NCBI RefSeq assembly: GCF_025457605.1
Contig: NZ_JAMZFY010000002.1
Span: 62,001-126,000, forward strand
Source: Haloarcula laminariae
GTDB taxonomy: Archaea; Halobacteriota; Halobacteria; Halobacteriales; Haloarculaceae
Reading direction: 5' to 3'
DNA length: 64,000 bases
Below the pieces are notes generated by a model, which was not told where the DNA came from, did not search any database, and saw nothing but the letters and a program-made list of their open reading frames with translations. Numbering within the stretch: position 1 is the stretch's first letter; every line of letters starts with the position of its first letter. Made by a program: the position numbers and the translations under genes. Positions 7,270 to 64,000 of the stretch are shown here, piece after piece.

Positions 7270-7362
7270 CGCCCCGTCGCCCCCCGAACGCGTCGCCGGG
7301 GTTGCAACAGCGTCACGTCACGTCGCCGCCGTAACCGCCGACAGGCGTCTCCGGGAGCGTCG

Positions 7363-7506: not shown

Positions 7507-8136
7507 CGCGAACTGCGCCAGCGCCCGCCCGCGGTGGGAGACGGCGTTTTTCTCGTCGGTGCTCATCTCCGCGAACGTGGTGCCGTCGTGCTCGAAGATG
7601 GGGTCGTAGCCGAAGCCGCCCTCGCCTCGGGGGGCGACGATTTCCCCGGGCACCCGGCCCTCGAACAGCTTGACCGGCAGCGCGTCCTCGCCGCCCGCCA
7701 CCTGGTCGTCGGTCGTCGCGCCGCCGCGCTCGTCGGCGCCGAGGTCCTGGCCCCGCCGGCCCTCGCGGTCCACCGGCTCCGGGGTCGCCGCGAACGCCTC
7801 GCCGTCGCAGTAGGCGATGACGGTTTTGAACGCCGCGCCGTGGTCGTCCTCGGGCTCGGTCAGCCGCCAGACGCGCTCGATGCCGACCCTGTCCTCGACG
7901 TACGAGGAGTAGGGCCCCGGAAAGCCGTCGAAGGCGTCGATGAACAGGCCCGCGTCGTCGACGATGACCGGGCCGTCGGCCGCCCGGTAGGCCTCGCGGG
8001 CGCCGTGGGCCGCCACCGCGCCGAGGTCGTCGGCCTGTACCTCGGGGTAGTCGAAGTCGAACTGGACCACCTCGTCGTCCAGGTAGGCCGTCGCCTCCCG
8101 GACCTTCCCGGGGTTGGTCGTCACGAAGTTGAGCAT
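7486..8136 (-). CDS. rdgB: Non-canonical purine NTP pyrophosphatase (ITPase/Ham1/RdgB family)
   Basis: Hydrolyses ITP, XTP and dITP to monophosphates and keeps deaminated purines out of nucleic acids. The 216-residue protein starts with the family motif TTNPGKVREA. It carries DDAGLFIDAFDGFPGPYSS for metal and base binding and ends with GFGYDPIF and SHRGRAL. An extra acidic, low-complexity segment (about residues 122-158, rich in Asp/Glu/Arg/Gly) sits between the usual strands and makes it longer than typical archaeal forms of about 185-190 residues. This looks like a salt-adapted insertion. Confidence 0.93.
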   Translation of the reverse strand: MLNFVTTNPGKVREATAYLDDEVVQFDFDYPEVQADDLGAVAAHGAREAYRAADGPVIVDDAGLFIDAFDGFPGPYSSYVEDRVGIERVWRLTEPEDDHGAAFKTVIAYCDGEAFAATPEPVDREGRRGQDLGADERGGATTDDQVAGGEDALPVKLFEGRVPGEIVAPRGEGGFGYDPIFEHDGTTFAEMSTDEKNAVSHRGRALAQFAEWHAER

Positions 8137-8215
8137 ACCGCTACACGAGCGGGCAGCCCCAAAAGAGGCGTCGAAACCGCGCGCCCGGCTTCGGCTGTAC
8201 CGCCGACGGGGACCG

Positions 8216-8491
8216 TCAGTCGACGACGACTTCGACCGGCTCGTCGGCCTCCTCGCCCCCGAACTCCTCGCCCTCGCCCCGGCGCTCCTGATACAGCATC
8301 GCGCCGGCGACCCCCAGCACGATCCACGCGCGCCAGTTCGCCAGGTTCAGCGTGTAGCCGATGCCGAACGGCTTCTCGACCAGCATCCCGTCGCCGGGCT
8401 GCCAGTACGAGGAGACGAGCCGCTTCAGGCTGGGCCGTTCGAAGTTGTACGGGACGCCGAACAGTTCCCCTGACTGGGGTTTGTCTACCAT
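8216..8491 (-). CDS. DUF5808 domain protein, single membrane segment
   Basis: A 91-residue conserved haloarchaeal protein. It has the DUF5808 signature (SGELFGVPYNFERPSLKR, then SYWQPGDGMLVEKPFG) and a short hydrophobic helix (ANWRAWIVLGVAGAMLY) before an acidic tail. Similar segments occur in bacterial and archaeal membrane proteins of unknown function. A role near the membrane is inferred only from the helix. Confidence 0.8.
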   Translation of the reverse strand: MVDKPQSGELFGVPYNFERPSLKRLVSSYWQPGDGMLVEKPFGIGYTLNLANWRAWIVLGVAGAMLYQERRGEGEEFGGEEADEPVEVVVD

Positions 8492-8612
8492 ATCTGTCCG
8501 TACTCGCGGGTAGACTAAATTCCTTCCCCCCGACCTTTTTCATCGTCGGGTGTCCTCGGGCCGCTTCGCGTCCCTGCGGGCACCGCTCCTCGAAAAACGT
8601 CGACGAAAAAGG

Positions 8613-8641
8613 CGCGAATCGCCACACCGTGGCGATTCGCG
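8613..8641. repeat. Perfect 13-bp hairpin
   Basis: Arms of 13 bp (cgcgaatcgccac / gtggcgattcgcg) enclose a 3-nt loop (acc) in the gap between the DUF5808 and EamA genes. A second smaller hairpin (7-bp arms ccggcgg/ccgccgg, 8646-8666) follows at once. The pair could be a transcript end or a small mobile-repeat relic. Confidence 0.7.
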
Positions 8642-8753
8642 TGAACCGGCGGTCTGTGGCCGCCGGATGCTCCCTCACACGCTTGTTCGCTTCGCGCCGG
8701 CGGCACCCTGCCTTTCCCCGGGTCGGCCGCAATCACGGCCGGCCACCGCACCG

Positions 8754-9170
8754 CTACTCCACAGACGTGAGATAGACGGCGGCGACGGCCAGCCCGATGC
8801 CCGCGGCTTTCCGGGCCGTGAGCGGTTCGTCGAGAAAGGCGATGCCGAGGATAGAGCTGGTGGCGATGAACATCCCGAAGATGGGGACGACGACGCTGAT
8901 GGGACCGGCCGCGAGCGCCCGGTAGTACGAGACGATACCGACGGTGAGGGCGATACCGGCACCGTAGGCGTAGACGGCCCGCTCGTGGGTGAGATAGGGC
9001 GTCACCGACACGTCGGCGGTGAGGATGATGCCGACGGCCGCGACGACGAGAATCCCGTTGGAGATGAGGACGACCACGTCGCTCGGGATGTCCACGGTCG
9101 CGAGTTTCACCAGCGGCGGGACCGCCGTGTAGCCAAGCAGTGCGATAACGGCCCAGACGAGATAGCGCAT
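8754..9170 (-). CDS. Half-size EamA/DMT family transporter
   Basis: A 138-residue membrane protein made of one EamA repeat: about four to five hydrophobic helices, with AGPISVVVPIFGMF and a FLDEPLTARKAAGIGLAVAAV end typical of the second half of an EamA unit. Full DMT exporters carry two repeats, so this probably acts as a dimer, as small DMT pumps do. The substrate is unknown. It is not obviously co-transcribed with the KEOPS gene below it (gap 43 nt, same strand), but that is possible. Confidence 0.82.
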   Translation of the reverse strand: MRYLVWAVIALLGYTAVPPLVKLATVDIPSDVVVLISNGILVVAAVGIILTADVSVTPYLTHERAVYAYGAGIALTVGIVSYYRALAAGPISVVVPIFGMFIATSSILGIAFLDEPLTARKAAGIGLAVAAVYLTSVE

Positions 9171-9213
9171 CCGGCGCGGCTACGGCGGCGAGAAAGGTGT
9201 GCGTTCGGGTTTG

Positions 9214-10944
9214 CTACTGGTACCGGCCGCGGCCCTCGATGTCGGCCAGGCTGTCGAAGACGGCGTCGGCGTGGCCCGACACGGCCCGGTAGGCCCCACA
9301 GGCCGCCTCGAACAGCGCCTCGGGGTCGTCAGCGGTGCCGGCCAGCGACTGGGCCAGCACGTGGAGGTCCATCGCGTGGTCTTCCGGTTCGTCGGTGTAG
9401 TAGCCCAGCCCGAAGTCGATGAGGAAGACGGACCGCTCGCGGGTCGCTTCGCTCTCCGCTCGCCCGTTCCGCGTCGCATCGTCGGGCGCGACGCGGACGT
9501 TCCGCGTCGTCGGGTCCCCGTGGACGAAGCCGGCGTCGTGGATGCGCGCGAGGTGCCCGCCGACGGTCCCCACGGTGTCGGCGTTGAGTCGCTCCCGGAG
9601 GTCGGCCTCGCCGACGCGCTGGAAGACGATGCGGGCCTCGGCGGGGTCCACGTCCAGCACCAGCGGCGTCGGGACGCCGTGCTTGCGGGCCTCGCTCGTC
9701 AGCCGGACCTCCTGGCGCGTGCGTTCGGTCCGCAGCCGCTCGTCGAGGGCCGGATGGCGGTAGCTCCGCGGGGTGCGCGCCTTGACGACGCGGTCGGCCT
9801 CGACGGTGACCGTCGCTTCGGCGCCCTGGACCTCGGTCTCGCCCCGGTCGCGCCGGTCCACGCTCTCGTCGGGACCGCGCCACGTGACCGGGACCTCGTC
9901 CGGCCGGAAGTTCGAGTCGATGGCCGAGGCCTCGATGGCGACGGTGTCGCCGGCGGCGTACATCTTCGCGCCCAGCATCGCTATCATCCCGGCGTTGTCC
10001 CGCAGAAAGCGGTTCTCGGGGGCGTAAAACGACGCACCGCGCTGGTCGCACATCTCGCCGAGCATCCCCTGGAGCCGTTCGTTCTGGCCGACGCCCCCGC
10101 CAAGGACCAGTTCGTCGGCGCCGGTCAGCGACAGCGCCCGCTCGGAGACCTCCGTCAGCATGCCGAAGACGGTCTCCTCCAGCCCCCGACAGACGTCGTC
10201 CACGGGCACGCCGTCGTCGACGGCCTGCTTGGCCGCGCTCATGACCCCCGAAAACGAGAAGTCCATCCCCTTGACGACGTAGGGCAGGGGGTGGTACTCG
10301 CCCTCGCGGGCGTGCTGTTCGACCTTCGGCCCGCCGGGGTGTTGCCAGCCGATATGCCGGGTGAACTTGTCGATGGCGTTGCCCGCGCCGGTGTCCATCG
10401 TCTCCCCCAGCACCCGGTAGCGGCCGTTCCGGTAGCCCAGCACGTGGGCGTTCGCGCCGGAGGCGTTCAGACAGACGGGCGAGTCAAAGCCCGAGCGGTG
10501 GCGGCCGACCTCCAGGTGGGCGACCATGTGGTTGACGCCGACGAGTGGCACGTCGAACCGCTGGGCGACCGCGCGGGCGGCGGTGGCGACGATGCGCAGA
10601 CAGGGGCCCAGCCCGGGGCCACGGGAGAACGCGACCGCGTCGAACGGCGGGTCGCCGTCCTCGCCGGCGCGCTCCCGGGCGTGGTCGATAGCCGTCTCGA
10701 CGACCCGCGGAATCGCCTCGCCCATGTGTTCGGCGGCCTCGCGCGGGTGAATGCCGCCGCTGTCGGGCTGGTAGGCGTCGGTCTCGATGAAGACGTGGTC
10801 GTCGCTGGTACTCGGCAGGCCGTCAGATTCGAAGACGCCGTCGGAACTGGCGTTCTGCCGGGCGTTCGAAACCGCCACGCTGTCGGTTTCGAAGACTGCA
10901 GCGCTAGCTGCCCACGCGGTGCCTTCGATACCGAGAATCCGCAT
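9214..10944 (-). CDS. Bifunctional Kae1-Bud32 KEOPS protein (tRNA t6A synthesis)
   Basis: A fusion of the tRNA threonylcarbamoyltransferase Kae1 and its regulatory kinase/ATPase Bud32, the two central KEOPS subunits that make t6A37 in ANN-decoding tRNAs. The Kae1 part (about 1-330) has the ASKHA-fold start, GIHPREAAEHM, and the metal-binding HMVAHLE (H139, H143). The Bud32 part (about 350-576) has the kinase-like FVHGDPTTRNV and FLIDFGLGY motifs. The fusion is normal for haloarchaea and some methanogens. Odd: the N-terminal part contains a roughly 30-residue insertion (about 22-52) in which a VFETD-like segment occurs three times. The gene follows rps27ae and rps24e in one operon, with 6 nt between stop and start. 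Confidence 0.95.
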   Translation of the reverse strand: MRILGIEGTAWAASAAVFETDSVAVSNARQNASSDGVFESDGLPSTSDDHVFIETDAYQPDSGGIHPREAAEHMGEAIPRVVETAIDHARERAGEDGDPPFDAVAFSRGPGLGPCLRIVATAARAVAQRFDVPLVGVNHMVAHLEVGRHRSGFDSPVCLNASGANAHVLGYRNGRYRVLGETMDTGAGNAIDKFTRHIGWQHPGGPKVEQHAREGEYHPLPYVVKGMDFSFSGVMSAAKQAVDDGVPVDDVCRGLEETVFGMLTEVSERALSLTGADELVLGGGVGQNERLQGMLGEMCDQRGASFYAPENRFLRDNAGMIAMLGAKMYAAGDTVAIEASAIDSNFRPDEVPVTWRGPDESVDRRDRGETEVQGAEATVTVEADRVVKARTPRSYRHPALDERLRTERTRQEVRLTSEARKHGVPTPLVLDVDPAEARIVFQRVGEADLRERLNADTVGTVGGHLARIHDAGFVHGDPTTRNVRVAPDDATRNGRAESEATRERSVFLIDFGLGYYTDEPEDHAMDLHVLAQSLAGTADDPEALFEAACGAYRAVSGHADAVFDSLADIEGRGRYQ

Positions 10945-10950
10945 CGCGCC

Positions 10951-11082
10951 CTACTTCCACTCGGTGTAGCCGCACTTCCCGCAGTGCTGGCGGTCGTCGT
11001 GGTCGGCGAGCACCGTGTCGCCACAGCGCGGACAGAGGTCCTTCGTCAGCTCGCCGTCGTCGTAGTAATCGGAGCGGGGCAT
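10951..11082 (-). CDS. rps27ae: 30S ribosomal protein S27ae
   Basis: A 43-residue zinc-ribbon ribosomal protein of the small subunit. It has CPRC at 17-20 and HCGKC ending at residue 37, giving four zinc cysteines (C17, C20, C34, C37). It starts with [16 protein letters not shown] and ends with YTEWK. The ATG (complement of 11080-11082) directly follows the S24e stop, and the stop is 6 nt before the Kae1-Bud32 start, so the three genes form one operon as in many archaea. Confidence 0.95.
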
Positions 11083-11391
11083 CTATGCTTCCTCCGCCTC
11101 TTCCTCGCCGTCGGCGACGATCTTGTTGCGCTCGAGCATGTGGTCCTGCTCGACGTCGCGGGCGTACTCCGGGCTGTCGTAGACCTTCGCGTAGCCGACC
11201 GTCTTTCGCATCCCGAACTTCGTGTCGAGCTTGTGGATGACGACCTCTTCGGCGTCCTTGTTCAGGGTCGCGGCCAGCGAATCACGCACGGAGAGCCGGG
11301 ACGGCGTGGCCTCGTCGTGGACGACCTCGAAGCGGACGTCCGTTCTGTGCAACATGGGATTTTCGTCTTCCTCGATGATGTCGATTTCCAT
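11083..11391 (-). CDS. rps24e: 30S ribosomal protein S24e
   Basis: A 102-residue small-subunit protein. The start at 11391 gives the conserved MEIDIIEEDENP N-terminus. The body has LLHR-like and TPSRLSVRDSLAATLN segments and a FGMRKTVGYAKVYDS core. The frame stays open further upstream to 11538, but that extension has no family similarity and crosses a promoter region. It is the first gene of the S24e-S27ae-Kae1/Bud32 operon. Confidence 0.95.
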   Translation of the reverse strand: MEIDIIEEDENPMLHRTDVRFEVVHDEATPSRLSVRDSLAATLNKDAEEVVIHKLDTKFGMRKTVGYAKVYDSPEYARDVEQDHMLERNKIVADGEEEAEEA

Positions 11392-11525
11392 GGTTCGTTG
11401 TCCATAGATTCCCGCCGTAGCGCCTAAAAGGATTTCGAAGCCGCCATTCGCGGTCTCGCGGGCCGCGACCCCACGGTCGGCGCCCAGCGCCGCGCCGCCG
11501 GCCGAACTGAACGCATAAGTGTCGG

Positions 11526-11981
11526 TTGTGCGAATCAACCGTCGAGGGGTTCCCTATCTACTCGCGAGACCACTTCGTCATCTCCGTCGCCGTCGGCCTG
11601 GTCGCCGGCCTGTACGCCGGGGTGGACCTGCTGACGGGGCTTGGCTGGGTCGCGTTCGCCGCCGTCGTCGGCGTCGGCATCGACTTCGACCACTTCCTGG
11701 TCGCCTGGTACAACACGGGCGAGCCGCGGGCGATTCGCTACTGCCTCCGGCATCCCCGTGCGGTGTTTACCGACCAGGCGGCGATATTCCACGAGTACGA
11801 ACTCGGCAAGCTCGACCGCCTGCTCAGTCACGTGCTCATCGGCGGGCCGCTGGTCGCCGCGCTCTGGGTGCTCGCCCCGCCGCTCGCGCTGCTGGCGGCC
11901 GCGACGCTGTACGCACACGTCGTGGCTGACCTCGCCCAGGACATCCGGGACGTGCGGGAGACGAACGCCCCGCTCGGCTGA
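11526..11981 (+). CDS. Membrane protein with DxDH and HE motifs (possible metal-dependent hydrolase-like)
   Basis: A 151-residue protein with three to four hydrophobic segments. The polar motif GIDFDHFLV (about residue 51) and HEYELGKLDRLLSHVL lie close to the membrane. Their His/Asp pattern recalls the DUF457/YdjM group of membrane metal-dependent hydrolases, but I am not certain of the family. The only in-frame start before the first helix is TTG at 11526, since a stop codon lies at 11508-11510. It ends 9 nt before the convergent RFC gene stop. Confidence 0.65.
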   Translation: MCESTVEGFPIYSRDHFVISVAVGLVAGLYAGVDLLTGLGWVAFAAVVGVGIDFDHFLVAWYNTGEPRAIRYCLRHPRAVFTDQAAIFHEYELGKLDRLLSHVLIGGPLVAALWVLAPPLALLAAATLYAHVVADLAQDIRDVRETNAPLG

Positions 11982-11990
11982 TAAGGGCAG

Positions 11991-12998
11991 TCAGAGCTGG
12001 CCGATATCCGCGAGCAGCCGCGAGAGGTGAATCCGCTCGTTGGCGGCTTCGGTCAGCGCCATGTCGGTCTCGCCCGCGAGCTCGTGGACCGTCGCCAGCC
12101 GCTGGCCGGAGTACCGCGAGCGGGCCACGTCCAGAATCTCCTCGATGACGTCGTCGGCGCCGTACCCCTCGTCGACGAGCAGGTCGTCAAGCTCCGAGCG
12201 GGCGTCGGTAAAGCGGCCCTCCTCGGCGGCCTCGACCATCGACTCCACGGCGTCGTCGGCCTCCAGCCCCTGGAGGGTCTCGTAGGCCGTCTCCATGGTC
12301 ACTGCGCCGGTCTCCTCGTAGGTGGTCTGGGCGGCCAGCACCGCCGTCCGGAGGTCGCCCTCCGCGTAGCCGGCGACGTACTCCAGCCCGTCCTCGTCGT
12401 AGTCGGCCCCCTCGGCGGCCACGATGTCGGAGAGGACGCCGACGGTCTCGTCGTGGGTCGGCGCCCGCATCACGACCGGGAAACACCGCGAGCGAATCGG
12501 CGGGATGAGCGCCGACGGCTGGCGCGTGGCGATGACGAACTGCGTCGCCTCGTAGTACTGCTCCATCACCCGGCGCAGCGCCTGCTGGAAGTCCTCGCGC
12601 ATCCCCTCGGCGTTGTCCAGCAGGATGGTCTTGTACGTCCCCGACATCGGCGAGTAGCTGGCCGACTCCTTCAGAACGTGGTTGATGAGGTCGGCCTTCG
12701 AGGACGTCCGGCGGCGCTTGCTGTCGATAAAGGACGAGAATCGGGGGTCGTTGGCGACCTCCTTTTTCGTCATGTCGAACACGTCGGCGACGTTGAGTTC
12801 GGTGAAGTCGGCGTCCGGGTTGTCGTGGACCTCGCGGGCGTAGGCCCGCACGGCGGCGGTCTTGCCCGCCCCCTTCGGCCCGTGGACCAGCAGGTTCATC
12901 GGCTCCTCGATGGCCCCCTGCAGGTGGTCGCGGGCCGCCGACTGGGGAACGTCTTCGAGTGCCGGCGCGTGCGTCTCGGTCCACAGCGGCGCGTCCAT
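11991..12998 (-). CDS. Replication factor C small-subunit-like ATPase (RfcC type)
   Basis: An AAA+ clamp-loader subunit that would help load PCNA on DNA. The 335-residue protein has Walker A GPKGAGKT at 40-47. Walker B is LLDNAE at 126-131, changed from the usual LDEAD. Sensor 1 lies around VIATRQ (156-160) and the RFC-box SRC at 170-172. Haloarchaea carry more than one RFC small subunit, and the DN Walker B and low similarity to standard RfcS suggest this is the third, specialised one. I infer this from the motifs alone. Confidence 0.88.
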   Translation of the reverse strand: MDAPLWTETHAPALEDVPQSAARDHLQGAIEEPMNLLVHGPKGAGKTAAVRAYAREVHDNPDADFTELNVADVFDMTKKEVANDPRFSSFIDSKRRRTSSKADLINHVLKESASYSPMSGTYKTILLDNAEGMREDFQQALRRVMEQYYEATQFVIATRQPSALIPPIRSRCFPVVMRAPTHDETVGVLSDIVAAEGADYDEDGLEYVAGYAEGDLRTAVLAAQTTYEETGAVTMETAYETLQGLEADDAVESMVEAAEEGRFTDARSELDDLLVDEGYGADDVIEEILDVARSRYSGQRLATVHELAGETDMALTEAANERIHLSRLLADIGQL

Positions 12999-13056
12999 CT
13001 GTCGTCCGGGCGTAGGCGAGGGGCCGACAAGTATCCCCCGCTTCCCCGCGTCCCGG

Positions 13057-15033
13057 CTACTCCCCGCTCACCGGTCTATCGGCCCGGTGCTCGCTGATAA
13101 TCTGGTCGACCATCTCGGCCTTCTGTTCCTGTCGGCGCTCCTCGGCCCGGTCGTGCCAGTCGTCGATGGCCTCCTCGACGGCCTCCTCGCGGGCGATGGC
13201 GAGCTCGTCGACCTCCTGGACGGGGACCATCTCGGCGGGGGCGACGGGTATCTCGTGGTCGAACAGCACCTCGTCGGCGGCGTCGGAGAGGGTCTCGTTG
13301 CGAAGCACCAGCCGCGGCTCGACCTCGGCCAGCCGCTGGGCCGTCGACCGGCCCGCGCCGGAGGCGTCCCGGAACATGACGATGTCGCCCGCCGCGAGCC
13401 CGAACTGCTCGTCGGCCTCGTCGATGGCGTCGCGGGTGAACTGCTCGACGACCTTCACCGGGACCAGCCCCTCCTCGTGTTCGGAGACGTCGGCGAAGTT
13501 CGAGTGGTCGAGCTTCCAGAGCTCCTTGAGCCGTTCCAGCTTCTCGGAGAGGGCCTCGCGTTTCTCTTTCTCCGTCTCGACCTCGCGTTCGAGGGCGTCG
13601 TTGCGCCGCTCCAGACGGGTGACCTCGCGGTCCTTGCGGACCTCGCGGCGGCCCTCCTGTCTGGCTTTCTCCAGTTGCTTGTCCTTCTCTTCGAGCTGTT
13701 CGTCCTTCCGCCGGATGGTCCCCTTGAGCTCCTCGACGTGGTCCTCCAGCCGGTCGATGCGGGCCTCCAGTCGTTTGATTTCCTTCTCGTCGGCGGTGAG
13801 TTCCCGGGGCTGGTGGCTGGCGGCCTCCTCATCGGGCTCGTCCTCGCCCTCGATGTCCCGGAGGACGCTCTCGACCGACTCCTCCCCGGCGACGACGCGG
13901 GCGACGACTGGGCCGACCTCGTGGCGCGGGGGGACCTTCTCGGCGACCCGCTCGAACTGGCTCTCGTGGTGGTCGAAGGCGTAGAGGGCGGCGGCCATCG
14001 CGTCACGTTCGTGGTCGTTGTCGTACCCCTCGTGGCGGGTGCGGTGTTTCTTCTCGTCGACCGGGAGGTCGCGCTCTGGCGCCCACCCCGCCGCGTCGAA
14101 CGAGCGGCGGAACTTCTCGACGGTCTCGGGCATCGGCTGGACGTCGGCGGCGACGACGACGGGCCGGCCCCGCTCGATTATCCACTCGATGACGGCGGCC
14201 TGGTCGCTCGTGCGGGAGGAGTAGACGTCAAGCACCTCGCCGTCCAGGCCGACGATGGCGACCGCCGTCGTGGTGCCGGGGTCGACGCCGACGACGACGT
14301 GGTCCCGGCGTTTCGCCAGCGGGCGAAACTCGATGCCGTCCCGCCGGACGCGCTCGATTTCGATGCGGGTGTCGCCCGACCGGTGCGTCGAGACCGGGAT
14401 GTCCCCCGGTCGGGCTTTCACGCGAAAGACCGCGTTCGAGAAGCCGCCGTACTTCTCGGTCACGTCCCGCTCGTACTCCAGCCCCGCGGCGTCGAGTTCG
14501 GACTCGACCTCGCGGGCCTGGCTCTTGACCGCGCCGTGGATTCGGCGCGTGTAGCGGTCCTCGGACCAGCCCCCCTTCCCGGTCGAGCGGCCCCGCGAGA
14601 CCTTCACCTCCGTCGTGTCGGTAAAGGCGGACACCTCCTGGCCGACGTTGGCGGCGGCGAGCCTGGCGGCGGCTTCGGCCTCCTGCATCGGCTCCTTGCC
14701 GTACGGGACGCCGTGGCGCTTGGCCACCCGCGAGAGCGGTTCGGGCCGCTCGTCGCCGGTGACCTGCACCAGTTTCGTCTCATCGGGCAGCGACCCCAGG
14801 AAGTGGACCAGCCGGTCCTTGTCGGCGGCCAGTTCGTACATGTTGTCCGTCGCCACGATGGCGGGCGCCTCGCTCTCGATTCGCCGCCGGAGCTTCCGCC
14901 GCGAGACGACGTCCCGCTCTAGCTCGTCGCCGTCGAAGACCACCAGCGCGTAGGAGGGCGCGTCACCGCGGACGTCGCCGCTCTGGATGTCCACCCCGAA
15001 GACGACGGCGTCGAGCGCTGCCGTGCGATTCAC
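13057..15033 (-). CDS. DUF460 family RNase H-like protein with long coiled coil
   Basis: An archaeal COG2433-type protein of unknown exact role, thought to be a RuvC/RNase H-like nuclease or nucleic-acid binding factor. I chose the GTG at 15033 (658 residues). A TATA-like element (ctaataaa, 15055-15062) lies about 27 nt before it, and the residues after it match the family start (FGVDIQSGDVRG). An RNase H-fold core appears around residues 245-330, with GVDPGTTTAVAIVG as strand 1 carrying the catalytic-type Asp. A charged coiled coil spans about 410-510 and a C-terminal globular part follows. The frame stays open to 15171 without family similarity. Confidence 0.85.
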   Translation of the reverse strand: MNRTAALDAVVFGVDIQSGDVRGDAPSYALVVFDGDELERDVVSRRKLRRRIESEAPAIVATDNMYELAADKDRLVHFLGSLPDETKLVQVTGDERPEPLSRVAKRHGVPYGKEPMQEAEAAARLAAANVGQEVSAFTDTTEVKVSRGRSTGKGGWSEDRYTRRIHGAVKSQAREVESELDAAGLEYERDVTEKYGGFSNAVFRVKARPGDIPVSTHRSGDTRIEIERVRRDGIEFRPLAKRRDHVVVGVDPGTTTAVAIVGLDGEVLDVYSSRTSDQAAVIEWIIERGRPVVVAADVQPMPETVEKFRRSFDAAGWAPERDLPVDEKKHRTRHEGYDNDHERDAMAAALYAFDHHESQFERVAEKVPPRHEVGPVVARVVAGEESVESVLRDIEGEDEPDEEAASHQPRELTADEKEIKRLEARIDRLEDHVEELKGTIRRKDEQLEEKDKQLEKARQEGRREVRKDREVTRLERRNDALEREVETEKEKREALSEKLERLKELWKLDHSNFADVSEHEEGLVPVKVVEQFTRDAIDEADEQFGLAAGDIVMFRDASGAGRSTAQRLAEVEPRLVLRNETLSDAADEVLFDHEIPVAPAEMVPVQEVDELAIAREEAVEEAIDDWHDRAEERRQEQKAEMVDQIISEHRADRPVSGE

Positions 15034-15212
15034 GGCCCTCGCTAGGGGATGCGTGCTAATAAATGTCGTTCCGCGTCCGGGAACTGCGTACGGTTTTTCG
15101 AGGATGAGGCAACACAGCCTGAAAGCCCGCTGGCTAAACTTGGGAGCTTTCTGGATGTTGGCGACAGCCACTGTCCCAACTCACGGGTCGCCGACAGAGA
15201 CGAAAGATGGAT

Positions 15213-15923
15213 TTACCGAACCGGGTTCTCGGGACCGCGGCCGAGGAACTCCGAGAGGAACGCGTGGACGGTCTGAGCGTCGTAGCTGTCCATGTACATG
15301 CGGTTGCGCCACGCCGTCAGGACGAAGTCGGACTCGGCGCTCTCGTTTTCGTTCGGGACGACGATGACGCTGCGCCAGGTCCCGGTGTGGGTGCTGGCGA
15401 ACTCCTGGAGGCTGTTGCGGGCCGATTCGTTCATCGCGCTCTCGTCGTAGTAGATGACGACGGCACCGTGTTCCAGCGCGTGGACGATGTTACCCGCGGG
15501 CTGGGACTCCTCGTAGAACCCCCCCTCCGTCGGCGTGTTGTAGTGGGGCCCAGACAGGGGCGGGGACTGTTCGTAGTCGACGTCCCGGCTCTCCGGGACG
15601 TGCTGGGTCCCCTCGCTGGGGAACTGCTCGACCGCCGAGAGCCGCTCGCTGTCGCCGGAGTCGTCGAGTGCCGCGGCCTCGATACCGTCGCCACCGCCGC
15701 CGCCGCTCAACTGCGTGACATAGACGACGGCGCCGAGTGCGATGACGGCCCCGACGACGCCCGCCACCACAGCGAGCGAGACGCCGCCGTCGTCGTCGCT
15801 CGCGCGGCCCTCGACGCGCCGCCGGTCGATAGCGCCGAGTTCCCCTCCGTGCTCGTCGGCGAGGTGGTCCAGATACGCGTCCTCGCCGTCGAACGACGCC
15901 TCACAGTACTCGCAGTCAACCAT
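15213..15923 (-). CDS. DUF3105 membrane-anchored protein with N-terminal C2H2 zinc finger
   Basis: A 236-residue protein. The N-terminus is a C2H2-like finger (C4-x2-C7-x12-H20-x4-H25), followed by one membrane helix (about 47-69) and a glycine linker. A DUF3105 domain fills the rest, shown by the HVPE...VDY...PPLSGPHYNTP pattern and GGFYEE. Bacterial DUF3105 proteins are exported or membrane-anchored, so this one likely has a cytoplasmic finger and an outer domain. The combination is unusual outside haloarchaea. The role is unknown. Confidence 0.85.
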   Translation of the reverse strand: MVDCEYCEASFDGEDAYLDHLADEHGGELGAIDRRRVEGRASDDDGGVSLAVVAGVVGAVIALGAVVYVTQLSGGGGGDGIEAAALDDSGDSERLSAVEQFPSEGTQHVPESRDVDYEQSPPLSGPHYNTPTEGGFYEESQPAGNIVHALEHGAVVIYYDESAMNESARNSLQEFASTHTGTWRSVIVVPNENESAESDFVLTAWRNRMYMDSYDAQTVHAFLSEFLGRGPENPVR

Positions 15924-15962
15924 TGGCCCGACCGTATGCGGCGGGAGGGTTTGAACGTATTG

Positions 15963-16643
15963 CTACGAGAACTCCGCCGTCTCGACCAGGTCGGCAAAGG
16001 CCGCCCGCTCGCGCTCGTCGCCGGTCGCCTGGTCGGTGTCGTCCCGGAGCCGACGTTTCAGCGTCCGGAGCGCGTCGTGGTCGACCGCGGCCAGCTCGTC
16101 GGCCACGGCGCGGGGGTCGTCGGTGACCCGCGAGACGAGCCCCATCCGCAGCGCCGCCTCGGCGCCGACGGTCCGACCCGACAGCGCGAGGTCCATCGCC
16201 TCGCCCTCGCCGACGACGCGGGGGAGCCGCGTCGTCCCGCCCCACGCGCCGAACAGCCCCAGTTTCACCCCGGTCTCGGCGAACGTCGCCCCGGGCGTGG
16301 CGACCCGCAGGTCACAGGCCAGGGCCAGCTCGACGCCGCCGCCCCTGGCCGCCCCGTCGATACCGGCGACGACGGCGCCGTCGTAGGCCGCCAGTTCGTT
16401 CGCGACCCGCTGGCCCAGCGCGGCGAAGTCGGCCGCCGCGTCGTCGTCGAGGTCCCGCACCACCTCCAGGTCCGCGCCGGCACAGAACGCCCTCCCCTCG
16501 CCGTGGAGATAGAGGACCGGTTCGCTCGCCTCGGCCACGGCGTCCGACAGTGCAGACAGGGCGTCCCTGTCGAGCGCGTTGCGCCGCGCCGGCCGCGACA
16601 GCGTCAGCACGCGCACGTCTCCCTCGGCCGTTGTCCGGACCAT
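15963..16643 (-). CDS. Enoyl-CoA hydratase/isomerase family protein
   Basis: A crotonase-fold enzyme likely acting on acyl-CoA thioesters, for example in fatty-acid or amino-acid breakdown. The start at 16643 gives 226 residues, with RPARRNALDRDAL (CoA binding) near the start. GRAFCAGADLEV and AARGGGVELALACDLRVA form the oxyanion hole. The upstream in-frame ATG (16670) would add nine residues without similarity. The protein is somewhat short for the family (usually about 255), mostly at the C-terminus, so reaction type cannot be assigned. Confidence 0.85.
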   Translation of the reverse strand: MVRTTAEGDVRVLTLSRPARRNALDRDALSALSDAVAEASEPVLYLHGEGRAFCAGADLEVVRDLDDDAAADFAALGQRVANELAAYDGAVVAGIDGAARGGGVELALACDLRVATPGATFAETGVKLGLFGAWGGTTRLPRVVGEGEAMDLALSGRTVGAEAALRMGLVSRVTDDPRAVADELAAVDHDALRTLKRRLRDDTDQATGDERERAAFADLVETAEFS

Positions 16644-16704
16644 GCCCCTGCTTGCTGGTGGTGTTTCCAAAGGTCTTTGCCCTTGCCTCCGCTAGAGCGC
16701 GCCA

Positions 16705-17328
16705 ATGGAGGAAGTGGCGGCGGTCCGTCGAGCCGCGCTGGCAGGCGTCGACGACATCGAGCCCGAGCGGCTCCACGACCGCCTCGCCGCCCGGCTGGAC
16801 GACGCTTCGTTCGCGCCGGGCGTGTTGACCCTCGTCGCCGAGGCGGCCGCTCGCGATCAGGCGGTCGACGACAGCGACGCGGACCGCGCCGCCGGCGTCC
16901 AGCTCATCTACGAGGGGCTCGCGCTGACCCGCCGGCTCGCCCACGACGACCCCTGGACCACCGGCGACCGCGACGCCGCCGACCTGGACATCCTCATCGC
17001 CGACATCCTCGTCTCCCGGGGGTTCTATCTGCTGGCCCGCACCGGAGCCGCCGAGGCCGCCGTCGACGTGGTCCGGGAGTTCGGCAAGGACCAGACCGAA
17101 CTCCGGGCGACCGGCAACGACGACCTCGACGGCAACCTGGAGGCGGACATCTGCGAACTCGCCGTCGTCGCCGGCGTCACCGCCGCCGGCCACGAGCCGA
17201 CGGCGGCGCTGCGCGCGGTCGGTCCCGACCTGGCGAGCGACGGGCTTCCCGCGGTCGACACCCTGCTGAGCGGCGAGGTCGCCGACCGGCTGACCGGTCA
17301 CGACAGTCAGGCCGCCGCCGACCACTGA
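16705..17328 (+). CDS. Conserved haloarchaeal helical protein (DUF7114-like)
   Basis: A 207-residue, almost all-helical, acidic protein. I believe it belongs to a haloarchaeal family called DUF7114. It has no signal peptide or membrane helix. The segment from about 75 to 125 (YEGLALTR, then DADLDILIADILVSRGFYLLA) faintly resembles the helices of isoprenoid synthase partner subunits, but the metal-binding DDxxD motifs are absent. It lies just upstream of tRNA-Thr on the same strand. Function unknown. Confidence 0.7.
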   Translation: MEEVAAVRRAALAGVDDIEPERLHDRLAARLDDASFAPGVLTLVAEAAARDQAVDDSDADRAAGVQLIYEGLALTRRLAHDDPWTTGDRDAADLDILIADILVSRGFYLLARTGAAEAAVDVVREFGKDQTELRATGNDDLDGNLEADICELAVVAGVTAAGHEPTAALRAVGPDLASDGLPAVDTLLSGEVADRLTGHDSQAAADH

Positions 17329-17383
17329 TTCTCGGTCGGAATCGAAACGCCTAAAGACAACTGCCGGATACAGATGAGTGCGT

Positions 17384-17455
17384 GCCTGGGTAGCTTAGCG
17401 GTAAAGCGCGTCCTTGGTAAGGACGAGACCCCGGATTCAAATTCCGGCCTAGGCT
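17384..17455 (+). tRNA. tRNA-Thr (anticodon GGT)
   Basis: A 72-nt cloverleaf. The acceptor arms are gcctggg and cctaggc (one G-U pair). The anticodon stem cgtcc/ggacg encloses the 7-nt loop ttggtaa, with anticodon GGT for ACC/ACU. The T arm is ccgga-ttcaaat-tccgg. The discriminator base is T and CCA is not encoded. No intron is visible. A TATA-like gcctaaag (17349-17356) lies about 30 nt upstream. Confidence 0.95.
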
Positions 17456-17763
17456 TTTGCCGACTACACTTCTGCGAGGCGCTCCGTCGCCGAGCGACTG
17501 CTGTGGTCGACAAACCGGCAGCGGGATTTGAATCCCTGGAAGTCACAGCCCGCGCGGTCGAGCGTCACGAGACGAGCAGGAATGTCTTCCTCCGGGTTCA
17601 AATTCCGGCCTATGCTTTCTCGGAACAACCGACTCAGAGCATCTGCGACCGGTCCGGGGTGCGTGGAATTTCGGCTTGGGCTCGTTCTACACACCAACTG
17701 CGAGCGGCGTGGGCACCGTTAACGACAAACCGGCCCAACAGTGGGCCGGCCACGACGGGGCCG
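17456..17763 (+). other. Gene-free region with degenerate tRNA 3'-end copies
   Basis: This stretch has no convincing gene. It holds a near-perfect second copy of the tRNA-Thr 3' end (17592-17618). A T-arm-like gggattcaaatccc lies on the minus strand at 17523-17536. A weaker third tRNA-like end is seen around 17665-17682. Tyrosine recombinases of viruses and plasmids often use tRNA 3' ends as attachment sites, so these look like remains of past insertions and excisions. No integrase gene is left nearby. Confidence 0.55.
17592..17618 (+). repeat. att-like direct repeat of the tRNA-Thr 3' end
   Basis: This 27-nt segment matches the tRNA-Thr T arm and acceptor end (17431-17457) at 25 of 27 positions, including the ttcaaattccggccta core. 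The distance between copies is 161 nt. Confidence 0.75.
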
Positions 17764-18018
17764 TCAGACGCCCCAGGAGATACGGTCCCAGACCCGTTCG
17801 TACCCGTAGTACGTCCCTGTCTTGACGACGTTCGCCACGAGACCGATGCTCAGTGCCTGGCCGGTGTCGCCAGTGACGGACAGCGCGACTAGGACGGTGA
17901 TGACGATCATAAGCGTCCGGTACAGTAACGTCTTGACCAGCGCACGGGACACCCGCTGGTGTGGTGACCGCGTCAGAAGGCCGGCCAGGGCCGCTCGAAT
18001 TGACGCGAGAGGCGACAC
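17764..18018 (-). CDS. DUF2061 membrane protein
   Basis: An 84-residue protein with two membrane helices in the DUF2061 layout: KTLLYRTLMIVITVLVALSVTG, then ALSIGLVANVVKTGTYYGYERVWDRI. Such small proteins are widespread in bacteria and archaea but have no firm function. The gene is on the far side of the tRNA relic region from tRNA-Thr. Confidence 0.82.
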   Translation of the reverse strand: MSPLASIRAALAGLLTRSPHQRVSRALVKTLLYRTLMIVITVLVALSVTGDTGQALSIGLVANVVKTGTYYGYERVWDRISWGV

Positions 18019-57986: not shown

Positions 57987-58865
57987 TCAGGCCACCGCCA
58001 CGCCGACGACCTCGGGCACACCCAGCGACCGGGACCGCCAGCCGCCCCGACCGTCGGCGGTGGCGTCGTCGGCCGTGTTCACGAGGAAGGTGCCGTCCGC
58101 CGTGATGGCGTAGGTGTCGTCGCCGTAGGCCACGTCGACGACCCGCTCGCGAACCGGGAGGTCGCAGGGCTGCCAGTGTGGCTCCGGGCCGGCGCCGGCG
58201 CGGTCGGTCAGTTCGTAGAGCGTGTCCACGTCGGCGGCGTGTACACGCCCCACGTCACTTGCTTCGGGGGGCCGGCTCCGGCCGTCGTCGGTCGCGACGA
58301 GGCCGTGAGCGCCGGACCGAACGGCCGCCCAGTTCTCCCTGGGGCCGACGGTGCCCTCCTGGGGGTCGCGCCTGTAGAGCCCGTCGGCGGTGGCGGCGAA
58401 GGGACCGGCCACGTCGGCGGCGTCGTGGAGCCCCAGATACGCACAGCCGGGCAGCCCGTAGACGCCGTCGGCGGCCGCGACGAGGTCGTCGGAAAGGGCC
58501 CGCACGTCGGCGACCTCGCCCATCTCCCACCACTCGCCGTCGTCGTAGCGGGCGACCCGTCCCTCGCCCGCGGCGACCAGCCCGTCGGCGTCGTATCCCA
58601 CGGCCGTCGCTGGGCCAAAGCCCGTCGGCTCGAAGCCCTCGTCGGTCGATATCAACACCGCCTCCTCGGTGGCGACCGCTATCTCGCCGTTCGCGCCGGC
58701 GATGTCACGGGCCGCACAGCGGTGGGCGAGGGTGAACCGGCCTATCTGCCCGCCGGCGGTCTCGACGCGAGTCACGCCCAGGCCGGAGCCGACGTAGGCG
58801 TGGGTCTCCGGGCGCGTCTGGCCGTACATCCGCTTTTCGGACAGCGTGAGGACGTCGTCGGTCAT
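57987..58865 (-). CDS. HVO_0234-type beta-propeller protein
   Basis: A 292-residue protein built of repeated strands ending in GV/GL-A/V-D/E patterns ([22 protein letters not shown]-like). I recognise it as the haloarchaeal HVO_0234 family beta-propeller found next to hemL. It has no signal peptide. It overlaps hemL by 4 nt, which implies translational coupling and a possible role in tetrapyrrole synthesis. Confidence 0.78.
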
Positions 58866-60199
58866 ATGGCCGTTTTGTAGGCTTCCAGCGTTTCCTCGAT
58901 GTCTTCCTCGGTGTGGGCGTCACAGACGAACTGGGACTCGAACTGGTTGGCGGTGAGGAACACACCCTGCTCTTTCATCGCGGGCCAGAAGAGCCGCTCC
59001 CAGCGCTCGGTCTCGGCGCGTTTCACGTCGCCGCCGTTCTTCGGGCAGTGGTCGTAGCGGGGACAGGACTCGCGCTGTCGGCAGCCGGCCTCGCAGTGGC
59101 CGTCGAAGCTGTCCGGGGCGTCGCGCGTGAAGATTACCTTGAACATCGAGTCCGTCCCGACGACCGTGTACTGTGGCGCCTGGTCTTCGAGGATGTCCTG
59201 CAGGCCCGAACGGAGCCGGTCGGCCAGCCCGTTGACGTGGTCGTACACGTCGTTTTCGGCCGCGTACCGCAGGGTTTCGAGGCCGGCGGCCATCCCGACC
59301 GGGTGGCCGGAGTAGGTGCCGGACTGGAACACGTCGCCGGCGGGGGTGAACTGCTCGATGATCTCGCTTTTCCCGCCGACGGCCGCCACCGGGAAGCCGC
59401 CGCCGACTATCTTCCCGAGGGTGGTGATGTCGGGGTCGACGTCGAACTTGCCCTGGGCACACTGGAGCCCGCCGACGCGGAAGCCGGTGATGACCTCGTC
59501 GAAGATGAGGAGCGAGCCGTGGTCGTCACACAGCTCTTCGAGCGTCTCGTGGAACCCCTCGACGGGGTGGACGATACCGTAGTTCCCGAGGATGGGCTCG
59601 GTGAGGACGGCGGCGATGTCGTCGCCGTGTTCGGCGAACACCTCCCGGGCGGCCTCGCTGTCGTTGAACGGAATCGTCAGGGTGTGGTCGGCGAAGCTCT
59701 CGGGAATCCCGGGACTGGAGGGGGTGGTGTGGTCGCCCTCGCCCTCGACCAGCGTGGACTCCTGGGCGCCGTGGTAGCCGCCCTGCATCACGACGATCTT
59801 GTCGCGGCCGGTGTACCCCCGGGCCAGCCGGACCGCCGAGACGGTCGCCTCGGTGCCGGAGTTGACGAATCGGGTCATCTCGACGCTCGGGACGTGGCGG
59901 GCGACGAACTCCGCGAGTTCGACCTCGACCTCCGTGGGCGCGCCGTACATCGGCCCCTCGGCGGCCCGCTGTTGGACCGCGGACTGGACGGCTTCGGGCT
60001 GGTCGTGACCCAACAGCAGCGGGCCGTACCCCATCACGTAGTCGATGTAGCGGTTGCCGTCGGCGTCGACGACGTAGCCGCCGTCGCCCTTCTCGACGAA
60101 GAAGGGGTAGGGACGGATGGCCCGCACGGAGGAGTTGACGCCGCCGGGCATCACGGAGAGCGCCCGGTCGTACAGGTCGCGTGACTGCTCGTGGTTCAT
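58862..60199 (-). CDS. hemL: Glutamate-1-semialdehyde 2,1-aminomutase
   Basis: Forms 5-aminolevulinate for heme and cobalamin. The 445-residue PLP enzyme shows GGVNSSVRA, the SGTEA phosphate site, and the catalytic Lys in [10 protein letters not shown] near 266. It has an odd Cys-rich insert near 365-385 (C-x3-C-x5-C-x5-[19 protein letters not shown]) not found in standard HemL. A short inverted repeat (ccgcc/ggcgg, 60201-60216) precedes the start. Confidence 0.94.
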
Positions 60200-60371: not shown

Positions 60372-61205
60372 TCAGTCGTCGCTGATAGTCGTCCCGGTGA
60401 CGACGTTGTCGTCCATGCTCCAGTCCCACTCGAAGCCGTACGAGGAGGAGATGTAGTAGTACGCAGCGCCCATGAACAGGACGCCGCTGGCGACGTTGCC
60501 GACGGTGACGACGGCCAGGTTGTACCCCATGCCGGCCCAGGAGACCGCTTCGGCGCCCGGGGCGGCGACGTTGGCGGCGAACAGGATGGTCATGTTCGCG
60601 ACGCTGTGTTCGTAGCCCGACCCGATGAAAGCGAGCAGGCACCACCAGATCATGATGAGCTTCGCGGACGTGTTCTCCAGCTGGAAGTTGCTCCAGACGG
60701 CCAGACAGACGAGCCAGTTACACAGCATCGCCCGCAGGAACAGCGGGACGAGGTCGCGGGTCATCTTCGCGCCGCCGACGGCCTCGAGCAGCGGTGCCGC
60801 ACTGCCCAGCACGCCGGCCTGCCAGGCCATCGCGCCCACGAGGATAGAGCCCAGGAAGTTCCCGACCCAGGACCAGGTCCACACCTTCAGGGTGCCGGAC
60901 CCGTCGACGCGGCCCGAGAGCAGCCCCATGGTCATGATCATGTTGTTCCCGGTGAACAGCTCGGAGCCGGCGACGATGACCAGGCTCAGTGCTCCGCCGA
61001 AGACGGCGGCCATGACGAACCCGCGCATGGGTTCGAACGCGGTCTCGAACATTGCACCGCCGAAGAGGAACGTCATGACCACGATGAGCCCGAGATACGC
61101 CCCGGCCATCGCGGAGTGAATGATGTACGCCGGAAGGCTCTTCTCTATCAGTTCTACCTGTGCCGCAGCCGCCTTGCTAATCGAAGTGACGCTCTCCTGG
61201 TACAT
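60372..61205 (-). CDS. Formate/nitrite transporter (FNT) family channel
   Basis: A 277-residue membrane channel of the FNT family (formate, nitrite, or small weak acids). Six helices with GSELFTGNN near 82-90 and the gating His in GYEHSVANM are visible. The substrate is unclear: nitrite, formate, or possibly cyanate or bicarbonate from the cyanase next door. An inverted repeat overlaps its TATA region (61231-61248). Confidence 0.9.
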   Translation of the reverse strand: MYQESVTSISKAAAAQVELIEKSLPAYIIHSAMAGAYLGLIVVMTFLFGGAMFETAFEPMRGFVMAAVFGGALSLVIVAGSELFTGNNMIMTMGLLSGRVDGSGTLKVWTWSWVGNFLGSILVGAMAWQAGVLGSAAPLLEAVGGAKMTRDLVPLFLRAMLCNWLVCLAVWSNFQLENTSAKLIMIWWCLLAFIGSGYEHSVANMTILFAANVAAPGAEAVSWAGMGYNLAVVTVGNVASGVLFMGAAYYYISSSYGFEWDWSMDDNVVTGTTISDD

Positions 61206-61706
61206 CTACGCTCCCCCCTCGGGCGTGTATGAAAAAGTCGAATTTTTCTCGCTTATATCTGGGCGTTCATCTGAATTTGATGCCGATAACCCATCGATGA
61301 GATGGCTAACTCCGGTCATTGTGCAACAAAAGTCTCTTCGGAAGAGGTGATATATAAACGTAGTTCTTCGATAGGGTTTCAGACTTTAGAATATACTAGG
61401 AGTATGGTCATATATACCGCCAACCTCAGCCAGATAGGGCCTGAATTTCTGTTTTATCCATATTTCTCTCCAAAGAGAGTAAATATAGATATTCTAAGTC
61501 AATCCACAGCGTCGCTTCCCATCTCGGCCCGTCTCGCGGCTGTGAGAGAGCGTTTCGGATGATAGGCATCCATTTCTATCTAGTTCGCTAGTATAATATG
61601 GTTAAACTGTGCCCATGTGTTGTCTGTATTTCCACCGCTATTAGGAGAATTCTTTAATATCACCAATCTCACCCTCCACCCGGGACATCGTCCCAGAACG
61701 CAACCT
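61206..61706. other. 500-nt A/T-rich region between FNT and cynS
   Basis: This divergent gap is strongly A/T-rich and holds no gene that I can support. It contains several small inverted repeats: gaaaaa/tttttc (61231-61248) and atact/agtat (61393-61405). A TATA-like tttaatat (about 61652-61659) lies before cynS. Regulated expression seems likely. Confidence 0.6.
61231..61248 (-). promoter_or_regulatory. Inverted repeat over the FNT TATA region
   Basis: gaaaaa-gtcgaa-tttttc lies 26-43 nt before the FNT start and overlaps the place of its TATA box. It may be both promoter and repressor site. Confidence 0.45.
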
Positions 61707-62192
61707 ATGACAGTAGACCGCACTGATATGGAGCCGTACTCGGACCGTGGGGAAATGCGAAGCAAGATTATCGCCGCCAAGGAGGAGGAGGGGCTCAAGT
61801 TCTCCGACCTCGAAGAGATAACCGGAATCGACAAGACGTACATCGCCTCTGCCGTCTACGACGGCGCAAGCACAACGGAGGACGAGGCGCTGGCCATCGC
61901 CGAAGCGCTCGGTCTCGAAGGTGACAAAGACGTCGTCAACGGTCTCCAGATGCCGCCGATGAAAGGCGAGGAGGAGCCGACCATCCCGTCGGACCCCGCG
62001 CTGTACCGATTCTACGAGGTCCCACAGGTGTACGGGCCCGCGATGAAGGCGATCATGCACGAGGAGTTCGGCGACGGTATCATGAGCGCGATCGACTTCG
62101 AAGTCAGCGTCGACAAGGAGATTCAGGACGGCGAGGAACACGTCGTCATCACCTACGACGGCAAGTTCCTCCCGTACAAGAAGTTCCCGTAA
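61707..62192 (+). CDS. cynS: Cyanase (cyanate hydratase)
   Basis: Converts cyanate plus bicarbonate to carbamate, which breaks down to ammonia and CO2. The 161-residue protein has an N-terminal HTH-like part and the catalytic C-terminal domain. Catalytic R101, E104 (LYRFYEVPQ) and S127 (GDGIMSAIDFEV) match R96, E99, S122 of the E. coli enzyme with a constant +5 shift. Start at 61707; an alternative ATG lies seven codons on. Divergent from FNT and convergent with DabA. Confidence 0.95.
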   Translation: MTVDRTDMEPYSDRGEMRSKIIAAKEEEGLKFSDLEEITGIDKTYIASAVYDGASTTEDEALAIAEALGLEGDKDVVNGLQMPPMKGEEEPTIPSDPALYRFYEVPQVYGPAMKAIMHEEFGDGIMSAIDFEVSVDKEIQDGEEHVVITYDGKFLPYKKFP

Positions 62193-62311
62193 CCGAACAG
62201 CTGAGCAGTTTTTTCGGCTCGATACGCGGCCGGACAGCGGCGTCGCTGTGCGGTATCGACTGCAAAACGGCGTGAGACGCGTACTACGATAGTCGGAGCC
62301 GGCGTCCCGTC

Positions 62312-64000
62312 TCAGTCCGTACTCGGGACCGTTATCCTGGTCGTGAGCGTCGCGTCCAGCGGCTCCCACTCCATGCCCGGCTGGTACCGGAAGGTGGTGT
62401 CGTCCTGCGTGGGGTCGATGACCAGCAGGGAGAGCCAGTTGTTGTCGAGCAGCGCCGCCAGGTCGGCGTTGCGGTCGAGGATGTCGGTGACGGTGTCGAC
62501 CGGCGCGTGGATGACCGTCGAGAGCCGGACGGGCGTGTGGTAGGTCGTCCGGTCGTCGGCGTACAGCGACTGGAGGGGCAACCCCATCTGCAGGTCGCCG
62601 CCGTTGCCCTGCAGGACGCCGACGTTGCCCACGGCGTTGTGGGTCGTCTTCGAGCCGCTCCCGTAGGTCTCGTTGTCGACCGTCGAGAAGTAGTACTGGG
62701 CGTTTATCATCTGGCAGACGACCAGCGGCCCCGCCATGATGTTCTCCAGGGCCTCGCCCTCCGGGTCGTTGTTCCAGTCGTAGGAGTGGAGGAACGACCG
62801 ACCGTCGAGGTCGACATCGGCGGTCAACGCCCGGGGCCCGATGACGAAGCCGGCGTTGCCGGACAGCCCGATTTCGGGCCGGGGCTGGGCCCAGTCCTCC
62901 GTGCGGGTCTCGACCTCACGGACGCCGTCGTCAGCGTCGACGTCCAGCGTCTCCAGTCGCTCCTCGGCCGCGCCGGCCTGGGCCCGTTCGAGGTCCTCGC
63001 GGAGGTCGCCGACGACGGTCCGCTGGCGCTCGGTGAGGTCGTGGCCCTCGGTGTAGACGGTCACCTCGTCGGTCGTGGTGTTGTGCCGGCCGGCGAGGAA
63101 GACGGTGTCGTCCGGGACCTCGATACCGCGTTCGGCGAGCCGCTCGCGGACCTCGGGGTCGTTGCAGATGCTCGCGAGCACGCGCGCGTTCGGCGTGCCG
63201 GGGCTTCCGGAACAGGCCCCGCAGTCGATGCTGGACTTGTAGGGGTTGTTGACCGTCTCGCTCTCGTGGCCGGTGAACACGACCACGGGGGCGAAGTCGT
63301 CCCAGCCCATCAGGTCGAAAGCCGCCTCGGCGTAGAAGACCTTCTGGTCGGTGGAGATACCCATGGCGGGGGAGCGCTCGTCGTCGTCGTCCGGCTCATC
63401 GAGCGTCACCGACGAGAACCGCGCGGGGTGGTCCGGGCCGAGGCGCCCCCGCGCGTCGTGGACTTTCGACGGGAACAGCGTCCGGGACGCGAGCGCGGCC
63501 CCGAAGAACGTCCCGGAGGCCTCGACGAAGCCGAAGGCCGCGGCCAGGTCGTTTTTCAGGGCCTTGAGGAACTTGTTGCCGTCCGCCTTCAGCCGGTGCC
63601 AGCGCTCGTAGGACGCCGTCGCCGGGTCCTCGGCCGGCGGCCGCTCGGTGACGTGGTGTTTCGGGTCGACCATCACCGGGCAGGAGTCGGTCTGGACCTT
63701 GGACTCGTGGCCGCTGTACTCGATGGGGACGCCGAAGAAGCCGGCGTACCCGTGGGTCTCGTAGGCCCCGGTCGCTTCCAGGTGTCGCCGGATTATCTCC
63801 GACCGGGTGTCGATACAGAAGACCAGCTGGGCGTCGGGCCGGTCGGCGTCCAGTTCGGTGTTCGACGCCGCCAGCCCCTTGTTGATGTCCTCCAGCAGGT
63901 CCTCCTGATAGCTGCGCTCCCAGGCCGTCAGCCATATCTCCTGGAGGCGGAAGTCCGCCTGTTTGGGCCGCTCGGCGCCGTCGGTCTCGGGCAGTATCTC
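62312..64000 (-). CDS. dabA: DabA-family inorganic carbon protein (UPF0753/DUF2309), N-terminus beyond window
   Basis: The C-terminal 562 residues of a DabA-like protein, cut by the right edge. DabA is the beta-carbonic-anhydrase-like subunit of the DAB complex, which works with a DabB NuoL-like membrane partner for energy-coupled CO2 hydration to bicarbonate. The metal-site Cys and Asp are in FCIDTRSE (about 63806-63820). The His and Cys are in GHESETVNNPY and DCGAC (about 63215-63275). A DabB gene is expected upstream, outside the window. Confidence 0.88.
   Translation of the reverse strand, partial: EILPETDGAERPKQADFRLQEIWLTAWERSYQEDLLEDINKGLAASNTELDADRPDAQLVFCIDTRSEIIRRHLEATGAYETHGYAGFFGVPIEYSGHESKVQTDSCPVMVDPKHHVTERPPAEDPATASYERWHRLKADGNKFLKALKNDLAAAFGFVEASGTFFGAALASRTLFPSKVHDARGRLGPDHPARFSSVTLDEPDDDDERSPAMGISTDQKVFYAEAAFDLMGWDDFAPVVVFTGHESETVNNPYKSSIDCGACSGSPGTPNARVLASICNDPEVRERLAERGIEVPDDTVFLAGRHNTTTDEVTVYTEGHDLTERQRTVVGDLREDLERAQAGAAEERLETLDVDADDGVREVETRTEDWAQPRPEIGLSGNAGFVIGPRALTADVDLDGRSFLHSYDWNNDPEGEALENIMAGPLVVCQMINAQYYFSTVDNETYGSGSKTTHNAVGNVGVLQGNGGDLQMGLPLQSLYADDRTTYHTPVRLSTVIHAPVDTVTDILDRNADLAALLDNNWLSLLVIDPTQDDTTFRYQPGMEWEPLDATLTTRITVPSTD

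Follow-up and report, generated by a model that had tools for sequence, protein, structure and literature searches.

The window, that is, the whole stretch of 64,000 nucleotides that was analysed (G000:C2:62001-126000), belongs to a 3.69 Mb genome of the genus Haloarcula. Close to its right end, a preliminary description had recognised an FNT-family channel, a cyanase (CynS) with its three catalytic residues and a DabA protein with its metal-site motifs, and family models and alignments find all of them as described. The features of the locus, including those located to the right of the window (window-equivalent positions), are the following:

58862-60199, minus strand: class-III aminotransferase, hemL-like, left border of the block (PF00202)
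60372-61205, minus strand: FNT-family channel, NirC-like, 277 aa (Pfam PF01226 Form_Nir_trans, 198 bits)
61206-61706, no strand: divergent FNT/cynS intergenic region, about 500 bp, AT-rich (alignment of three Haloarcula species)
61707-62192, plus strand: cynS, cyanase, 161 aa (PF02560/PF21291; TIGR00673; alignment with solved cyanases)
62312-64000, minus strand: dabA, in-window part (PF10070; catalytic residues)
window-equivalent 64748-65017, right of the window: dabA/dabB intergenic region
window-equivalent 65018-66466, plus strand: dabB (Proton_antipo_M/N; match to DabB2 9rd0_B)
window-equivalent 66748-68514, plus strand: nirA, ferredoxin-nitrite reductase (NIR_SIR; the best matches of known structure are the plant enzymes)
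window-equivalent 71034-71396, minus strand: glnK, PII protein (P-II)
window-equivalent 71389-72723, minus strand: amt (Ammonium_transp)

The aminotransferase of the left border would be of the glutamate-1-semialdehyde aminomutase type. The cynS frame spans 61617-62192 (+), with the start that agrees with its relatives at 61707. Its product carries the Cyanate_lyase and CYNS_N domains (Pfam), scores 164.6 bits against the TIGR00673 cynS equivalog (cut-off 113.3), and contains R101, E104 and S127 (motifs YR.YE and DGI.SAI), which are invariant among relatives. Cyanases consume bicarbonate and cyanate, releasing CO2 and ammonia. The presence of cyanate lyase in some Haloarcula has been noted previously (PMC12029414).

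The in-window part of dabA encodes the final 562 residues of a protein of about 811 aa, whose complete gene extends to approximately window-equivalent 64747, and which matches the Pfam DabA model at full length (856 bits, model positions 1-747 of 747). Thus, a broken dabA was ruled out, the gene being complete in the genome and interrupted solely by the window end. A missing or distant dabB was also discarded, since a NuoL-like dabB, the partner that the preliminary description had looked for to the right of position 64000, adjoins dabA in divergent orientation.

In the structure of DabA2 (PDB 9rd0), the key residues are C351, D353, R355, H524 and C539, together with E444 in the proton-coupling finger (PMC13144422). 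Alignment to DabA2 and to relatives reveals that the zinc ligands C351/H524/C539, the D353-R355 dyad and E444 are all kept in the DabA of this locus. DabB matches DabB2 (9rd0_B) at 3.5e-29, and its H225, K275, S281, H304, H308 and K312 reproduce the spacing of H260, K310, S316, H339, H343 and K347 of DabB2, as in a NuoL-like proton subunit with a His/Lys path, though it is encoded divergently from dabA. Both proteins of this putative CO2 hydrator, which would be driven by the proton-motive force (PMF), retain the residues needed in DAB2 (PMC13144422). A second dabB-dabA pair, in the ordinary tandem order, is located on another contig of the genome, the two DabAs being about 51-53% identical; a prediction of dabAB also exists for Haloferax volcanii (PMC8305020).

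Taking into account that FNT, cynS and dabA lie on alternating strands (-,+,-) and that dabB (+) diverges from dabA, a single operon is ruled out in Haloarcula. The genes may be co-regulated. Within the FNT/cynS intergenic region (window 61230-61700), three Haloarcula species share an unusually conserved block close to the FNT gene, and a further block immediately 5' of cynS. An Rfam scan of this region gave zero family matches, and an RNA element was thus rejected. No 9-mer (one mismatch allowed) common to all three promoter regions (cynS/FNT, dabA/dabB and nirA) was found, and any pairwise resemblance between cyn and dab promoters is only apparent.

Past the window, the gene order continues with dabB, nirA, an SBF-type transporter, CheC-like and AsnC-like genes, PII and Amt. 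The combined cyanate and carbon capture unit imagined in the preliminary description does not therefore hold as a whole, since nirA, PII and Amt beside dabB reveal a larger nitrogen island and not a free-standing module.

Conservation and origin of the block

More than one lineage has kept this neighbourhood. Hence two of the three refutations foreseen in the preliminary description, absence of dabB and lack of conservation in relatives, did not come true. The order FNT-cynS-dabA/dabB-nirA is kept in three Haloarcula species (G000, G301 and G375, the latter being H. rara SHR3), and it appears shuffled in G062 and G070, which belong to a different family and where FNT-cynS-(one small gene)-dabB-dabA-nirA is found, with the dab genes inverted. 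For each of the five cynS genes of this type, dabAB and nirA lie no more than about 6 kb away. Some local variation was observed: G070 contains two tandem FNT genes 5' of cynS (L053:7005-9192), G062 having one, and in G301 a PIN-domain (VapC-like) gene is placed between cynS and dabA (L046:10544-10933), which G000 does not have.

The co-occurrence of these genes, whose count had been suggested in the preliminary description, was established in 392 haloarchaeal genomes: cynS is present in 10 (4 of 95 genera), and the DabA lineage of this nitrogen locus (N-locus DabA) in six, five of which also have cynS. In obtaining the latter number, 60 lower-scoring DabAs were checked, zero of them belonging to the lineage, and higher-scoring ones were judged via their coordinates relative to nirA and a tree sample; the DabAs near nirA in G090 and G172 were rejected, being ordinary dabBA copies some 9-10 kb off. 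In the DabA tree, the six N-locus proteins constitute one clade (SH-aLRT 100%), distinct from the ordinary dabBA copies, which the cluster genomes carry as well. As a separate observation, a divergent beta-carbonic anhydrase gene directly adjoins dabA at G250:C1:2445609-2448489.

The CynS proteins of the five clusters likewise constitute a single clade (99/97). Together, the CynS and DabA clades suggest that the cluster probably had one origin and was retained while its gene order was shuffled. It follows that the cynS and dabA counts are not independent events, and Fisher tests overstate their independence. In the five cynS genomes outside the cluster, no dab was found within the 20 kb fetched; in four of them the CynS belongs to a different clade, and in the fifth (G376) cynS is split into two pieces (L014/L015, G376:C2:101798-102056), a possible frameshift or pseudogene. 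A search for cynS-dabA linkage in bacteria (tblastn, DabA HMM) found none in 76 cynS loci, many of which end at contig ends; the DabA query employed does recover bacterial DabAs elsewhere, with 31-39% identity.

In other Haloarcula, direct reading of the slot between hemL and nirA (L174, L177) reveals nasA, encoding the assimilatory nitrate reductase, and narK. These genes precede nirA, usually with the same CheC-AsnC-PII-Amt block, and a homologue of hemL borders the locus; nasA is at most about 2.5 kb from nirA in G177, G218, G020, G201, G162, G131, G241 and G091, and in G395 hemL directly adjoins nirA, with nas/narK a few kb off. NasA is absent from four of the five cluster genomes, while in G301 nasA is about 10 kb from the locus. 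Its absence from these four is consistent with an island fed by nitrite and cyanate.

The sixth N-locus genome, G384, also a Haloarcula, shows the arrangement nasA-narK-dabA-dabB-narK-nirA, with neither cynS nor FNT in the 20 kb fetched, and is an informative intermediate or relict. Thus, this dab accompanies the nitrite locus even where cynS is absent, and it is not strictly bound to cyanase. The assembly is just 80% complete, and its DabA branches beside those of cynS-bearing Haloarcula, so cynS may have been lost in this strain. The position of its dabA-dabB between two narK genes (L165, G384:C1:111901-131900, 5939-17964) resembles a duplication-flanked insertion.

The FNT channel

It had been supposed that the FNT could carry cyanate, nitrite or bicarbonate, and the evidence gathered favours nitrite. 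Among proteins of known structure, the hydrosulfide channel 3tdo and NirC 4fc4 come closest, and the protein has F90, T91, K156 and H209 (FocA numbering). In an unrooted tree with two reference proteins, all haloarchaeal FNTs group with E. coli NirC; the score against the NirC equivalog is 208 bits, under the cut-off of 293, and therefore indicates subfamily resemblance only. Outside Haloarcula, close relatives (58-63%) were found in four genomes only, G062, G070, G370 and G296, and in the last two the FNT gene is directly upstream of nirA, without cynS or dab. The grouping with NirC and these FNT-nirA pairs make a NirC-like nitrite channel more likely than a cyanate channel.

A cyanate channel, as supposed for the nitrifier FNT encoded beside cynS, appears improbable here, and it would be compatible with either reading of the DAB discussed below. 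The FNT gene adjoins cynS in the five clusters, FNT genes flank 9 of 76 bacterial cynS loci, and the idea has been published for nitrifiers, where it was proposed from gene adjacency only (PMC10753782). It has also been indicated that nitrate/nitrite transporters of one Pseudomonas may import cyanate (PMC6627978). However, the bacterial cynS-linked FNTs belong to another subfamily (K156R, F90L, L79F), on the opposite side of a 100/99 split, so that the tree rules out the window FNT as one of its members, and cyanate did not inhibit a nirA-type FNT that transports nitrite in a cyanobacterium (PMC4390861). This split narrows the question of which FNTs carry cyanate. The Arg-for-Lys156 subfamily next to bacterial cynS (L100, L106, L114, L116, L123, L130, L131, L145 and L164) is itself a candidate cyanate channel.

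Role proposed for the DAB

We propose, with about as much reason to accept the idea as to doubt it, that the locus is a nitrogen-assimilation island for nitrite and cyanate, having its own DAB to resupply CynS with bicarbonate. Nitrite, and perhaps some cyanate, would enter via the NirC-like FNT; NirA would reduce nitrite to ammonium, and CynS would transform cyanate and bicarbonate into ammonia and CO2. DabA-DabB would then use the PMF to convert CO2 back to bicarbonate inside the cell, offsetting its use by CynS during ammonium assimilation. A narrower version, in which this distinct DAB lineage is a dedicated supplier of bicarbonate to CynS, a PMF-driven counterpart of CynT with a role in nitrogen assimilation and not in carbon fixation, is advanced more tentatively, with prospects somewhat short of even.

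The coupling of CynS and DAB envisaged in the preliminary description is thus upheld in part. The shared neighbourhood and the separate DabA clade speak for it, and the rarity of N-locus DabA (6 of 392 genomes), with cynS in five of those six, supports it. Against it stand the same dab lineage without cynS in G384 and the Halosegnis-type (g9) cynS genomes, which manage without a neighbouring dab. The larger size of the unit, the NirC-like FNT and G384 indicate that the DAB belongs with the nitrogen island, its link to the cyanase itself being no more than probable. Moreover, each of the five cluster genomes has a gene for a beta-carbonic anhydrase, so bicarbonate could arise without the DAB, which need not serve cyanase; the substitution of the DAB for an absent carbonic anhydrase is for the same reason unsupported.

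A different, and rather unlikely, possibility is that the DAB serves nitrite/nitrate or general ammonium assimilation, cynS being merely co-located; the complex would provide bicarbonate for anaplerotic carboxylation and protons against the alkalinisation due to nitrite reduction. This would agree with the location of dabAB less than 4 kb from nirA in all six genomes, including G384 with no cynS nearby, and with the extension of the locus into PII and Amt. It accounts poorly for the presence of cynS on site in five of the six, cynS being rare (10 of 392), and ordinary haloarchaeal nir loci have no DAB; G384, judging from its DabA position in the tree and its partial assembly, may simply have lost cynS. 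It could also be argued that these genes are chance neighbours in an acquired island, the DAB being uncoupled from the nitrogen enzymes, as the single origin of the cluster, the alternating strands and G384 would allow. That is decidedly improbable, since two families retain the gene set although its order is shuffled and the dab genes are inverted, and a rough estimate gives a probability of about 0.6% per genome that dabA falls by chance less than 5 kb from cynS.

Of the 392 haloarchaeal genomes sampled, mostly from heterotrophic archaea, 219 encode DABs, which is over half. The lineage of the nitrite/cyanate island would tie a DAB to a specific bicarbonate-consuming enzyme, giving it a testable role in non-photosynthetic archaea. 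If this were true, a soluble carbonic anhydrase partner would have been replaced by an energy-coupled one, and the use of cyanate would itself be energy-coupled.

Comparison with known systems

A cyanase with a CO2-hydrating partner is already known, and the DAB as that partner would be the new combination; among the open-access papers searched, none names both cyanase and DabA. In E. coli, cynT, which encodes a carbonic anhydrase, adjoins cynS, and CynT is held to prevent the bicarbonate depletion caused by cyanase (PMC7321114). By analogy, a DAB could fill this role with energy from the PMF. The cynTSX operon and the haloarchaeal island share a gene for a CO2-hydrating enzyme, putative in the island, beside that of cyanase, which in E. 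coli is held to restore the bicarbonate consumed by CynS (PMC7321114). However, CynT is a soluble beta-carbonic anhydrase, whereas here an energy-coupled DabA-DabB membrane complex is encoded, and the island has neither cynR nor cynX and gathers nirA, FNT and dabAB on both strands. No beta-carbonic anhydrase gene was found next to cynS, those of this genome being on contig C1; in bacteria, CynT-like genes flank 11 of 76 cynS loci, and DabA none.

The FNT-cynS pairs of nitrifiers and proteobacteria (PMC10753782) coincide in the FNT gene adjoining cynS, and differ in the FNT subfamily (in those examined) and in having neither dab nor NirA. The haloarchaeal nasA-narK-nirA locus has in common the hemL-nirA slot and nirA, but contains nitrate reductase and NarK where three Haloarcula carry FNT-cynS-dabAB. 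The Halosegnis-type (g9) cynS also encodes a cyanase with intact motifs, although of a separate CynS clade and with no dab nearby; it is accompanied by a pyridine-nucleotide-disulphide oxidoreductase-like gene (L048-L051, about 8.4-10.4 kb), perhaps a sulfur/thiocyanate link. Finally, Halothiobacillus DAB2 (DabA2-DabB2, 9rd0) is alike in family, zinc site, Asp-Arg dyad, Glu444 and the proton-path residues of DabB, but it serves carbon fixation in an autotroph, whereas the DAB described here is part of a haloarchaeal nitrogen island, with dabA and dabB divergent in Haloarcula.
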